From Solirubrobacterales bacterium (GTDB lineage: Bacteria; Actinomycetota; Thermoleophilia; Solirubrobacterales; 70-9): a stretch of 64,000 bases of DNA. Below the pieces are notes generated by a model. It did not search any database. It worked only from the letters and a program-made list of their open reading frames with translations, and was not told the origin of the DNA. The translations under genes were made by a program, and so were the position numbers. The first letter of the stretch is position 1. Each line of letters opens with the position of its first letter. The stretch spans positions 1 through 64,000 of the forward strand of contig SHVA01000010.1 of the NCBI GenBank assembly GCA_009691195.1, read 5' to 3'. This document shows positions 28,829 to 34,806 of the stretch, piece by piece.

Positions 28829-30379
28829 CTAGCGCTTGGCCTTCCGCTTCTTGGGCTTGGCTTTGACGATGACTCGCTCGGTCATCTGAACCGGGTGCAG
28901 GCCGCAGAAGAGCTTGTAGGTGCCCGGCTGCGAGAACTTCTGCGTGAAGGTGCGGCCACCGTTGAGGTTCGGTGAGCCGATCCCGACGGGGCCGTCAGCC
29001 AGGGTGATGTTGTGGAGCTCCTCCTCGTTGTCGCCGCCGTCAACGAACTTCCAGGTGAGGCTGCCGCCCTTCTTGAGCTTGATGTTGTTCTGGCTGTAGC
29101 GGCGGTTGGCGACGTCGATCGTCGAGCCGGACTTCATCGCCTTGACCGCGCCGGGCGGGGCGTTGATCGTGACGGCGTTCCCGTTCAGGTCGATGCCGGT
29201 CAGCGGGATCGTGAACGGCACAGGGCCGTCGCGGCCGTCGGGGCGGTTCGAGTTGTAGATGTCGTCGGGCAGCGGGTCGCAATTGGTGATCACGGGCTCG
29301 AAGCCACCCGGTTCCTCGGCTACGTAGACGACCATGATCCCCATCACCCGGACGTGTGGCTCGGAGTCGTCGTAAGTCGCGTTGAGCCGCAATCGGCTTC
29401 CCTGCTTGAGGGGTATCCCCGTCTCGCTCCCGAACGCGGTCATGTTGACTGGCCCCGGTTCGTGGAGGATCGGTTGGACGTTGTAGAAGGGGTGGTCCTC
29501 GTAGCCCCAGGTCGGCAGCGACTCCGCCACCCGGCGGTCGTTGCAATCGGGCTGGGTCAGCGTCAGCTTGCGAGCTCCGCCATGAACGTGCCCGCCGCCG
29601 CCGATCAGGCGCCCGTCAACCGGCATCGTGAAGTCGTACTTCTGCGTGTTGGTGGAGCCCTGCCCGCCAGTGCCGGGGACGTTGTAGATCGGGTCGGCGT
29701 GGCAGTTCCGCTCGTCGAGCCAGTACGGCGTGACCGGCTCCTGCGGGTTGTCGCTGACGGTGTAGCTGTAGCGGATGTTGGCGTCGTCGGTGAGCTGCTT
29801 GTGGTTCATGACCATGTAGACCATTCCCCAGGGAAGGTTGCCGCCGCCGGCGTAGCCGTAGCCGTCCGGCATCGTGAACTTGGCGCGCTCCTCGCCGGCG
29901 GCATAGAAGCGCTGGAAGTTGCCGCCCCCTCCGAACCCACCGCGGCTGTCGAAGCCGGTATAGGACTGTCCCGCGCAGGTCCGGTCCTGCTGCTGGAGGT
30001 TGGCGAAGACGATGTGGTGCAGCATCAGCCGGCTGATCGGGACCTGTGTCGCCTCCTGCGTGTCCGGGTTGATGTCCACCACGTCGACGTCCATGTGGGT
30101 GATGGTGGCGTCGGTGTTGCTGGTGCCCGGATGCTGGACGACGTTGAAGGTCTGCTTGACGCCGAACCCCTCGACCGAGAAGGGGAAGTCGCAGGTGTAG
30201 CGCCTGGCCGGCCCGTTGGCGTCGGTGGTCGGTACGCCCCCATCGCAGGTAGCCGGCCCGTCAGCCGATGCGCCGGCCGGAATCGCAAGGAAGGCGGCGC
30301 CGGCGACCGCCGCAAGCGCGATCAGGCGCGCAAGGCGGCGCGTGGACACGAGCGGCGAGTGCGTGCGTGAGTTTCCCAT
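28829..30379 (-). CDS. Secreted PHM/DBH-like copper protein with C-terminal cupredoxin domain, copy A
   Basis: 516-residue exported protein. The signal peptide ends about residue 39 (AIPAGASA). The body resembles the two-domain fold of peptidylglycine/dopamine copper monooxygenases, and all six ligands are found in order: His121-His122 (LMLHHIVF), His193 (MVMNH), His264 and His266 (GGGHVHGG), and Met346 (VRVMGIMVVYV). A cupredoxin domain follows (about 415-510) with His456, Cys492, His495 and Met499. The tail is basic (KPKKRKAKR). It lies 16 bases after copy B. Copper oxygenase function is inferred from the ligand pattern only. An alternative is a copper store or carrier. Confidence 0.7.
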   Translation of the reverse strand: MGNSRTHSPLVSTRRLARLIALAAVAGAAFLAIPAGASADGPATCDGGVPTTDANGPARRYTCDFPFSVEGFGVKQTFNVVQHPGTSNTDATITHMDVDVVDINPDTQEATQVPISRLMLHHIVFANLQQQDRTCAGQSYTGFDSRGGFGGGGNFQRFYAAGEERAKFTMPDGYGYAGGGNLPWGMVYMVMNHKQLTDDANIRYSYTVSDNPQEPVTPYWLDERNCHADPIYNVPGTGGQGSTNTQKYDFTMPVDGRLIGGGGHVHGGARKLTLTQPDCNDRRVAESLPTWGYEDHPFYNVQPILHEPGPVNMTAFGSETGIPLKQGSRLRLNATYDDSEPHVRVMGIMVVYVAEEPGGFEPVITNCDPLPDDIYNSNRPDGRDGPVPFTIPLTGIDLNGNAVTINAPPGAVKAMKSGSTIDVANRRYSQNNIKLKKGGSLTWKFVDGGDNEEELHNITLADGPVGIGSPNLNGGRTFTQKFSQPGTYKLFCGLHPVQMTERVIVKAKPKKRKAKR

Positions 30380-30395
30380 CCGGCTCCTCAGTCTC

Positions 30396-31982
30396 CTAGC
30401 GCTTGGACTTCTTCGTCTTGTGCCTATTCTTGTGCTTCTTCCCCTTCGGGGACTTCATCTTCGCCTTTACAACAACGCGTTCGGTCATTTGGACCGGATG
30501 CAGCGCGCAGAAGATCTGGTAGGTCCCCGGCCTGTCGAAGGTCTTGGTGAAGGTGCGGCCGGCGTCGAGGTTCGGCGAGCCGATCCCCACCGGGCCGTTG
30601 GCGAGCGTCACGTTGTGCAGCTCGTCCTCGCCCGAGTCGATGAACTTCCAGGTCAGCTTGCCGCCCTTCTTGAGGATGACGTTGTTACGGGAGAAGCGCC
30701 GGCTCTGGACGTCGATGGTGGCGCCGGAGTCGATCTTGGCGAGCTTGCCCGGGGGGCCCTGGATCGTGATCGCGTCACCGTTCGAGTCGAGGCCCGTCAG
30801 CGGGATGGTGAACGGCACGGGGCCGTCGCGCCCGTCGGGACGGTTGGTGTTGACCACGTCGGGCGGAACCGGGTCGCATGAAGTCGCGACGTCATCGGCG
30901 CCGAGGCCGTCGTCGCCCTCGTATACGTAGAGCTGGAAGATGCCCATCACGCGGACGTGTGGCGCCGAGTTGTCGTAGAGCGTGTTGAGGCGGATGTCGT
31001 CGCCCGCGGCCACCGGGATCCCGGTCTCGCTTCCGAAGGCCGTCATGTTGATCGGGCCCGGCTCATGGAGGATCGGCCTCACGTTGTAGAAGGGGTGATC
31101 GGTGTAGCCCCAAGTCGGGATCGACTCCGCCACGCGGCGGTTGTTGCAGTCGGGCTCGGTGATCGTGAGCTTGCGGGCGCCGCCGTGGACGTGTCCCGCC
31201 CCGGCGACGATCCGGCCGGCGACGGGCGCCGTGTAGTCGAACGTGCGGGAGTCGGTGGACTTGGGCCCGCCGGTTCCCGGGATGTTGAAGATCGGGTCGG
31301 CGCTGCAGTTCGCCTCATCCAGCCAATAGGGCCTGACGGGCTTGAGATCGGTCTGGTCGCTGACGACGTAGCTGTACTGGATCCAGGCGTGATCGGTGAA
31401 CTTGCGGTGGTTCATGACCATGTAGACCATCGGCCAGAGGCTGTCGGCGCCGCCGGCATACCCGTAGCCCTCGGGCATGGTCATCTTCAGCCGCTCCTCA
31501 CCGGCGCCGAAGAAGCGCTCGGGCGCGTAGTTGCCGACGGTCTGCAGGCCGTCGAAGCCCCTGATGCCCTGGCCGTTGCAGGTCGCGTCGGCGTGGTTGG
31601 TGTTGAGAAAGACGATGTGGTGGAGCATCAGCTGCGAGATCGGGACCTGGGCGCGGTCCTCGTCAACCACGTCGGTATCCATGTGGGTGATCGTCGCGTC
31701 GGCGGTGACACCGGGATGGGGGACGTTGATCAGGTAGCGCTGCTTGACCGCGTAGCCGTCGACCGAGATCGGGTAGGTGCACGTGTACCGGGTCGCGCTG
31801 CCATTGGAGTCTGTGGCCGGGACGCCGGTATCGCACTCGGGGTTGTTGGCGTTGGGGGGAGCGGCCGACGCGGAGGCCGGAATCGCGATCAGGGCAAGCG
31901 CGAGCACGGCGCCGATGGCGCTCAGGCGTGCGATGCCGCGCCGCGAAGCAACGAGGAACGAGTGCGTGCGCGTGCTTTCCAT
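30396..31982 (-). CDS. Secreted PHM/DBH-like copper protein with C-terminal cupredoxin domain, copy B
   Basis: 528 residues, tandem paralogue of copy A with near-identical spacing of every putative copper ligand: His121, His122, His192, His264, His266, Met346, then cupredoxin His456, Cys492, His495, Met499. Signal peptide about 1-40 (LALALIAIPASASA). Well-conserved segments between the copies include HVHGGARKLT, GSETGIP, NRPDGRDGPVPFTIPLTG and LHPVQMTERV. A lysine-rich tail (KGKKHKNRHKTKKSKR) may bind the cell wall. It is first in a two-gene operon with an operator-like repeat 40 bases upstream. Probably acts outside the cell on a small substrate with two-electron copper chemistry; no substrate is indicated. 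Confidence 0.7.
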   Translation of the reverse strand: MESTRTHSFLVASRRGIARLSAIGAVLALALIAIPASASAAPPNANNPECDTGVPATDSNGSATRYTCTYPISVDGYAVKQRYLINVPHPGVTADATITHMDTDVVDEDRAQVPISQLMLHHIVFLNTNHADATCNGQGIRGFDGLQTVGNYAPERFFGAGEERLKMTMPEGYGYAGGADSLWPMVYMVMNHRKFTDHAWIQYSYVVSDQTDLKPVRPYWLDEANCSADPIFNIPGTGGPKSTDSRTFDYTAPVAGRIVAGAGHVHGGARKLTITEPDCNNRRVAESIPTWGYTDHPFYNVRPILHEPGPINMTAFGSETGIPVAAGDDIRLNTLYDNSAPHVRVMGIFQLYVYEGDDGLGADDVATSCDPVPPDVVNTNRPDGRDGPVPFTIPLTGLDSNGDAITIQGPPGKLAKIDSGATIDVQSRRFSRNNVILKKGGKLTWKFIDSGEDELHNVTLANGPVGIGSPNLDAGRTFTKTFDRPGTYQIFCALHPVQMTERVVVKAKMKSPKGKKHKNRHKTKKSKR

Positions 31983-33536: not shown

Positions 33537-33633
33537 GCTGGGCACCGGCCGCACCGACCGGCCGCCACTTCGGTTGCAGGATCGCAGACGATCATCCGGG
33601 CAGCCGGGGAAGCGGGTACTTGTGAGGAGAGAG

Positions 33634-34806
33634 ATGGGCAGAGGGGACTTCAGGCTGGGCATCGCCCTGACGGCAATCGCCGCGGGACTCGCGACCGTTG
33701 CGATCGCCGGGGCCGGAGCGGCCGAGGCAAAGACCGTCTGGCTGTGCAAGCCGGGCGCCACTCCCAACCCCTGCAAGGAGAGCCTCGAGACGACGGTCAC
33801 CTCCTCCGCCGGCGACTCCCACGTGACCGACCCCCAGAACGCGAAGAGGCCCAGGATCGACTGCTTCTACGTCTACCCGACGGTCAGCGAGCAGCCCGGT
33901 CCCAACGCCGACAAGACGGTCGATCCGCAGCAGACCTCGATCGCCGAATACCAGGCCTCGCGTTACTCGCGGCGCTGCCGCGTCTTCGCGCCGATGTACC
34001 GGCAGCTCACCCTCAGTTCGATCGGCGGCGAAGCCCCTGAGGAGGCCGCCCGGATCGCCTACTCCGACATCCTCGAGGCCTGGAAGACCTACATGAAGAA
34101 GTTCAACCACGGCCGCGGCGTCGTCCTGATCGGACACTCCCAGGGCACCTTCATGCTGCGACGGCTGATCCACAACGAGATCGACCCGAGCCCCAAGGCC
34201 CGCGCGCACCTGGTCTCGGCGATCCTGCTCGGCGGAAACGTCACGGTGAGGAAGGGCAAGAAGATCGGCGGCGACTTCCAGCACATCCCTGCCTGCGTGA
34301 GCGCGAGACAGACCGGCTGCGTGATCGCGTTCTCGACCTTCGGTGACACGCCCCCGGCCGACGCCCTCTTCGGCCGCCACGGGACGCCGGTCACGGGCGA
34401 CCTCCCGAGCGGCCCGAACTACCGGGTCCTGTGCACCAACCCCGCCGCTCTCGGCAGCGACGACTCGGCCCCCCTGAAGACGCTGCTACGCACCGAGCCC
34501 TTCCCCGGCACGCTGGGCATCGCGCTGCTGATCATGTTCGGCGGCCCACCGCCGACGGCGGCGACCCCCTGGCTACAGCCGCAGGATCACTACACCGGGC
34601 GCTGCGTGCGACATAACGGGGTCAACGCGCTGATGATCGACGAGGTCGAGATGGCGCGACACCTCGCTCCCTCTCCCGACGCCACCTGGGGCCTGCACTT
34701 CTCGGATGCCAACATCGCGCTCGGCAACCTGACCGACTTGGTCAAGACCCAGGCCGCCGCCTACGGGGCGAAGGCCGGCAAGACCGGCAGCACCAAGGGC
34801 AAGTAG
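33634..34806 (+). CDS. Secreted DUF3089 alpha/beta hydrolase
   Basis: 390 residues. A signal peptide runs to about residue 32 (IALTAIAAGLATVAIAGAGAAEA). The DUF3089 core is clear: DCFYVYPTVS near 76, RVFAPMYRQLTL near 117, and the nucleophile elbow GHSQG with Ser169. A C-terminal GVNALMIDEVEMARHL / GLHFSDANIALGNL carries the acid-histidine part of the triad. ATG 33634 has GAGGAGAG just upstream; an in-frame ATG at 33574 would precede the signal peptide with an untypical leader. An extracellular esterase or lipase is likely; the substrate is unknown. Confidence 0.85.
   Translation: MGRGDFRLGIALTAIAAGLATVAIAGAGAAEAKTVWLCKPGATPNPCKESLETTVTSSAGDSHVTDPQNAKRPRIDCFYVYPTVSEQPGPNADKTVDPQQTSIAEYQASRYSRRCRVFAPMYRQLTLSSIGGEAPEEAARIAYSDILEAWKTYMKKFNHGRGVVLIGHSQGTFMLRRLIHNEIDPSPKARAHLVSAILLGGNVTVRKGKKIGGDFQHIPACVSARQTGCVIAFSTFGDTPPADALFGRHGTPVTGDLPSGPNYRVLCTNPAALGSDDSAPLKTLLRTEPFPGTLGIALLIMFGGPPPTAATPWLQPQDHYTGRCVRHNGVNALMIDEVEMARHLAPSPDATWGLHFSDANIALGNLTDLVKTQAAAYGAKAGKTGSTKGK

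Follow-up and report, generated by a model that had tools for sequence, protein, structure and literature searches.

The window analysed here, a stretch of 64,000 nt from contig SHVA01000010.1 of a soil-type actinobacterium of the Solirubrobacterales (assembly GCA_009691195.1), contains two adjacent genes, copy 1 and copy 2, whose products join a C-terminal type-1 (blue copper) cupredoxin domain to a core that is very probably a copper protein with the fold of peptidylglycine alpha-hydroxylating monooxygenase (PHM). We put at roughly 0.6 the probability that these proteins work as secreted, cupredoxin-fed copper oxygenases similar to PHM and dopamine beta-hydroxylase (DBH). PHM, the animal copper enzyme that completes peptide hormones, and DBH are the textbook uncoupled dicopper enzymes, and the long-range electron transfer between their coppers is still debated. 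In the mechanism that we propose, the first of two jelly-roll domains would carry the electron-transfer copper, CuH (H121, H122 and H192, the latter being H193 in copy 1), and the second the O2-binding copper, CuM (H264, H266 and M346). The tethered cupredoxin would be reduced by an extracytoplasmic donor and then supply the CuH/CuM pair with single electrons. CuM would bind O2 and hydroxylate, outside the cell, a substrate lodged between the two jelly-roll domains at one of its C-H bonds. Since the electrons would come from the tethered cupredoxin, no free ascorbate would be needed. The conservation of the ligands, the match in fold, the membership of a family and the recurrence of the fusion are results of the analysis, and copper occupancy, O2 chemistry, the direction of the electrons and the substrate are inferred from them.

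A sequence-only reading of the window had proposed this set of PHM-like ligands for both copies, followed by a type-1 site formed by H456, C492, H495 and M499, and each of the named residues was found by computation at the position given for it. Their order (HH, H, HxH, M) is that of the CuH and CuM sites of PHM, with near-identical spacing. The matching spacing of the two copies is by itself a weak proof, because they are close paralogues (64% identity). Conservation was therefore judged on 58 non-redundant relatives showing 25-95% pairwise identity over 446 alignable columns. All ten proposed ligands, including the complete type-1 site, are invariant in this sample, except for M346, which is present in 57 sequences and faces a gap in the other one. 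Only 34 of the 446 columns are identical in at least 57 of the sequences, and the ten ligands are all among them (hypergeometric probability 2e-12, phylogeny ignored). Other invariant Met, His and Cys residues, outside the list of the sequence-only reading, are M119, M188, M190, H306, C279 and C369, the two cysteines being a probable disulfide pair.

The AlphaFold2 model of copy 2 (mean predicted local distance difference test, pLDDT, 88.3; predicted template modelling score, pTM, 0.84) was compared with solved structures using Foldseek. The best match was PHM (3mic, E-value 1.9e-8, probability 1.00), with DBH (4zel) at 7.9e-8; many PHM entries and human DBH headed the list, followed by cupredoxins matching the C-terminal domain. 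For a divergent protein from a sister clade (clade 2, described below; the window proteins belong to clade 1), modelled with a pLDDT of 89.7, the first 23 matches were all PHM or DBH (best E-value 2.4e-9, probability 1.00). The PHM-type double jelly-roll was thus recovered with two independent models. The outcome named beforehand as counting against the proposal, a model with the HH, H, HxH and M residues far apart, finds no support in the best match of copy 2, which is PHM.

Searches with Pfam profiles place the core in SURNod19 (PF07712), a plant nodulin and stress family named after Nod19/MtN19 that also has bacterial members. Both copies score above its curated cut-off of 25 bits (Table 1), the family is matched by 30 of the 31 aligned cores, and no other plausible family was found. 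The SURNod19 model has 377 positions and comprises only the core, without a cupredoxin; its matched stretches, 11-70 and 271-375, span the HH and the HxH to M regions of the bacterial proteins. Assignment of the core to a non-copper family, the other outcome that had been set against the proposal, did not occur, its sole Pfam family being copper-regulated in plants. In a first hhalign comparison with six canonical actinobacterial Cu2_monoox proteins the probability was only 34%, and it rose to 85-92% with more sequences; SURNod19 cores against 14 canonical proteins gave 92%, with an E-value of 6.7e-7. As controls, the reversed profile gave 0.3%, and shuffling the columns 60 times never gave more than 0.9%. 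In the global alignment HH is paired with HH, HVH with HMH and M346 with the Met of DEMC, so that five of the six core ligands are recovered without any structural input. A profile link between SURNod19 and Cu2_monoox_C, and with it common ancestry with the PHM/DBH copper monooxygenases, is thus detectable.

The fusion of such cores to a cupredoxin recurs widely. Scanning contigs with a single window protein gave no match, and relatives were retrieved with an alignment as query; the family was matched in 18 of 296 genomes of the phylum and 63 of 299 genomes of the class, with named relatives in Conexibacter arvalis, Svornostia abyssi and several species of Solirubrobacter. HH, HxH, M346 and M188 are retained by every member of a wider, non-redundant set of 91 cores that are followed by a type-1 motif at the C-terminus. 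The third CuH histidine occurs as H192 together with M190 in 56 of them and as H190 in the remaining 35, none lacking both. The first arrangement (M190-N-H192) is that of the window clade. The second, M-[ILV]-H-[ND] with its histidine at 190, defines clade 2, which a wider profile search revealed in Thermoleophilia as well as other families of Actinobacteria; position 190 is also the column that hhalign pairs with the His of canonical Cu2_monoox proteins. The layout described in the sequence-only reading is thus not peculiar to this genome, since it recurs in two actinobacterial clades, and the place of the third CuH histidine in it is not fixed. Cores of clade 2 combining HH/H/HxH/M with a CRIHPxM cupredoxin are found, among others, at loci L128:1178-2854, L131:909-2768, L138:971-2548, L143 and L144, from several actinobacterial families. 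The modelled clade-2 protein had no Pfam match and matched the NCBIfam amicyanin profile only below threshold. The copper-ligand core joined to a cupredoxin marks a widespread bacterial family.

Seven complete cores without a cupredoxin were also retrieved. All seven keep HH, HxH and M346, and four have no His at either 190 or 192, compared with none of the 91 fused ones (Fisher test 1e-5, phylogeny ignored). When a tree of the cores is rooted at its midpoint, each half contains fused forms, and the stand-alone cores fall within the half with H192. Either a single old fusion that some lineages have lost or two separate fusion events would fit this topology.

The C-terminal domain is an amicyanin-like type-1 cupredoxin with a site of the form His...Cys-x2-His-x(2-4)-Met, with Copper-bind (PF00127) scores in both copies above the curated cut-off of 21.2 bits, and it occupies the same terminal position in both clades; its fusion to the core is widespread in Actinomycetota. 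In clade 2, a separate gene for a small secreted cupredoxin adjoins four of the fused genes, on the same strand, and its product is a possible soluble electron partner. Additionally, among 18 canonical Cu2_monoox proteins of Actinobacteria, 12 have a CxxCH c-type haem motif at the N-terminus, so that in this phylum PHM-like cores seem to have been joined to electron carriers on more than one occasion. The motif reads CASCH in L043-L045 and L115-L123, and L044 also has a YceI domain. The adjoining cupredoxin genes and the haem fusions are consistent with the feeding of electrons by a cupredoxin, and are no proof of it.

The window proteins share with PHM and DBH (PF01082 plus PF03712) the fold, the order of the ligands at near-identical spacing and a probable secretion, and differ from them in lacking a Pfam match to these families, in the third CuH histidine, which changes place between clades, and in their fused type-1 cupredoxin, as opposed to the reduction by ascorbate alone of PHM and DBH. 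Both are SURNod19 members, although with a cupredoxin that is absent from the Pfam model. They also resemble the actinobacterial fusions of cytochrome c and Cu2_monoox in joining a PHM-like core to a built-in electron-transfer domain, which in those fusions is an N-terminal c-type haem donor attached to a canonical Cu2_monoox core. The His-Cys-His-Met site of the C-terminal type-1 domain is common to cupredoxins of the amicyanin/plastocyanin type and to NirK or multicopper oxidase with a C-terminal cupredoxin (6hbe, 9cck). Unlike the core of NirK or multicopper oxidase, that of the window proteins does not have a cupredoxin fold or the type 2/type 3 sites of multicopper oxidases, and only SURNod19 was found in it.

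Several observations weigh against a cupredoxin-fed oxygenase of the PHM/DBH kind. The expected match to Cu2_monooxygen and Cu2_monoox_C was not obtained in the Pfam search for either copy, even at an E-value of 10, and core profiles searched against the PDB retrieved no PHM chain by sequence; without a plain Pfam match, the homology to PHM and DBH is seen only by profile-profile comparison and by fold. A search of the source genome with PF03712 was likewise empty. The similarity of the copy 2 model to PHM is moderate, with a TM-score around 0.50 by target (PHM) length and a root-mean-square deviation (rmsd) of ca. 7 Å, so that, although the fold agrees, the domains do not overlay closely and their orientation or the loops differ from those of PHM. 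Additionally, hhalign places H192 two columns away from the PHM-type His, and the third CuH histidine shifts register between clades (192 or 190), in a departure from PHM. The invariant pair H306-E307 of clade 1 (window positions 31062-31067 in copy 2, in a HEPGP motif; 58 of the 58 relatives), which is absent from clade 2, finds no account in the comparison with PHM and is a candidate element for substrate binding or electron entry. The neighbourhood search revealed no gene shared by the whole family that could, as an operon partner, name a substrate or a reductant. Finally, the carboxylate of the peptide is anchored in PHM by R240, N316 and Y318, whose counterparts in the window proteins are A/G262, I348 and Q/M350. 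It is thus improbable that the substrate is a peptide with a C-terminal glycine, bound in the manner of PHM, and peptide amidation of the PAM type was not adopted, because these carboxylate-holding residues are not kept.

A fused cupredoxin donor is also the layout of NirK-type enzymes. As in NirK and multicopper oxidases, which use type-1 centres of their own, the electrons might serve for the reduction of nitrite, NO or O2 (the last to water or peroxide) at a PHM-type CuM, without hydroxylation of a carbon substrate. The NirK-type structures 6hbe and 9cck are among the fold matches of the C-terminal domain, and there are PHM structures in which copper carries nitrite (3mib). However, the overall structural match to NirK is far weaker than that to PHM (TM-score 0.16-0.19, rmsd about 20), the core is PHM/DBH-like rather than cupredoxin-like, and hydroxylation is the activity generally known for the PHM/DBH fold with such ligands, which makes a copper reductase or oxidase of this kind unlikely. 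We consider quite unlikely a non-catalytic function in extracytoplasmic copper binding or sensing, in which the two sites and the cupredoxin would buffer or ferry copper, because storage would not need an invariant set of all the catalytic ligands, the CuM methionine among them, together with a canonical type-1 site, and type-1 sites are electron carriers. Such a function would agree with the many invariant methionines (M119, M188 and M190) beside the proposed CuH residues in sequence, with the loss of a CuH histidine in some stand-alone members and with the behaviour of plant Nod19, a cleavage target of miR398 that follows the supply of copper (PMC3882225).

The fold itself is common to PHM, PNGase F, DUF2961 and viral major capsid proteins (PMC8812541), and PNGase F and viral double jelly-rolls appear in the match lists of both models, raising the possibility of a generic resemblance with a His/Met cluster devoted to another metal or role. 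Nevertheless, with both models the E-values of PHM and DBH are better than those of PNGase F and the capsid proteins by a factor of roughly a thousand or more, and the ligand motifs occur in PHM order at nearly PHM spacing, five of the six being aligned by hhalign with no recourse to structure; we thus hold this explanation to be very improbable. On balance, the observations made in the sequence-only reading were right, and its interpretation as a PHM/DBH-like oxygenase with its own type-1 donor is largely supported.

A PHM/DBH-like copper oxygenase is an already known kind of enzyme, and what the results suggest as new is the fused type-1 donor and a role for SURNod19, a family without an assigned function. 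A natural PHM-like enzyme with a tethered type-1 centre would allow electron entry to be followed through its blue band. In the cited studies no biochemical function is described for SURNod19 (PMC3882225, PMC10326430, PMC13355928). In bean, miR398 cleaves the Nod19 mRNA, which follows the supply of copper alongside Cu/Zn superoxide dismutase (PMC3882225). Arabidopsis NOD19 is described as a protein of elusive function with a signal peptide, a SURNod19 domain and, at its C-terminus, a hydrophobic helix (PMC10326430), and neither copper nor monooxygenase is mentioned in a 2026 study of the soybean Nod19 family (PMC13355928). If the fold assignment of the bacterial proteins carries over to plant Nod19, the latter would be a copper oxygenase. 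We see about even odds that SURNod19, including plant Nod19, is an unrecognised branch of the PHM/DBH copper oxygenases that in Actinomycetota has its own type-1 donor, giving self-contained, ascorbate-free extracellular hydroxylases. If true, this would account for the Nod19 mRNA being a target of the copper microRNA miR398, and would provide a testable function, that of a secreted copper oxygenase, for a plant family studied in nodulation, viral infection and copper stress. A limited literature search, in which absence is no proof, found no paper on a PHM-cupredoxin fusion or on a link between SURNod19 and PHM.

The two genes are separated by 16 bp, with copy 2 upstream on the coding strand, and each is closely preceded by a Shine-Dalgarno-like AGGAG sequence; scans for promoters and terminators gave nothing informative. 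The N-terminus of the products is hydrophobic and of signal type, as judged by eye only. The genome has a third copy, 54% identical, on a different contig (C10:3265-4725). The coordinates of these features, and of the loci with accessory genes, are collected in Table 1.

Table 1. Features of the two fused genes in the window and of accessory genes at related loci (residue positions are computed; conservation refers to the 58 relatives and, where a second count is given, to the 91 fused cores).
Feature	Coordinates	Strand	Description
Copy 1 (P0001, 516 aa)	28829..30379	-	Open reading frame; secreted SURNod19/PHM-like core plus C-terminal cupredoxin; Pfam SURNod19 33 bits, Copper-bind 22.1 bits
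Copy 1 HH (H121-H122)	30014..30019	-	
Copy 1 third CuH-type His (H193)	29801..29803	-	
Copy 1 HxH (H264, H266)	29582..29590	-	
Copy 1 CuM-type Met (M346)	29342..29344	-	
Copy 1 cupredoxin domain (residues ca. 416-506; H456, C492, H495, M499)	28862..29134	-	Pfam match
Copy 2 (P0002, 528 aa)	30396..31982	-	Open reading frame; layout as copy 1; SURNod19 36.1 bits, Copper-bind 24.1 bits
Copy 2 CuH-type HH (H121-H122)	31617..31622	-	58/58; 91/91; aligned with HH of Cu2_monoox proteins
Copy 2 third CuH-type His (H192)	31407..31409	-	58/58; preceded by invariant M188 and M190
Copy 2 CuM-type HxH (H264, H266)	31185..31193	-	58/58; 91/91; aligned with HMH of Cu2_monoox_C
Copy 2 CuM-type Met (M346)	30945..30947	-	57/58 plus one gap; 91/91; aligned with Met of DEMC in Cu2_monoox_C
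Copy 2 cupredoxin domain (residues ca. 416-506; H456, C492, H495, M499)	30465..30737	-	Copper-bind; best PDB sequence matches are amicyanin chains; ligands 58/58
Small secreted cupredoxin genes beside clade-2 genes	L128:197-1174, L129:2253-3416, L131:149-862, L134:3-1340	that of the fused gene	
S8 subtilase loci	L077, L078, L079, L082, L084, L092, L094, L096, L112	that of the clade-1 gene	

The neighbours of the two genes in the window (pdxS/pdxT, an RpiR regulator and genes for GGDEF, DUF3089 and ZIP proteins) are unrelated housekeeping or regulatory genes that give no pointer to function; the DUF3089 protein, encoded at 33574-34806, has no evident link with the locus. At nine loci from one sub-lineage, a gene for a secreted S8 subtilase lies directly upstream of the clade-1 gene, in most cases with XdhC downstream. 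This arrangement is reminiscent of processing by a protease and then PHM, but it is lineage-specific, and the subtilase was set aside as a mechanistic partner because it is absent from the window locus. Past the cupredoxin, the window proteins end in strongly lysine-rich tails (window positions 28829-28900 and 30396-30480), which are confined to these copies and their closest relatives (L003, L005 and L019) and may bind an anionic wall polymer.

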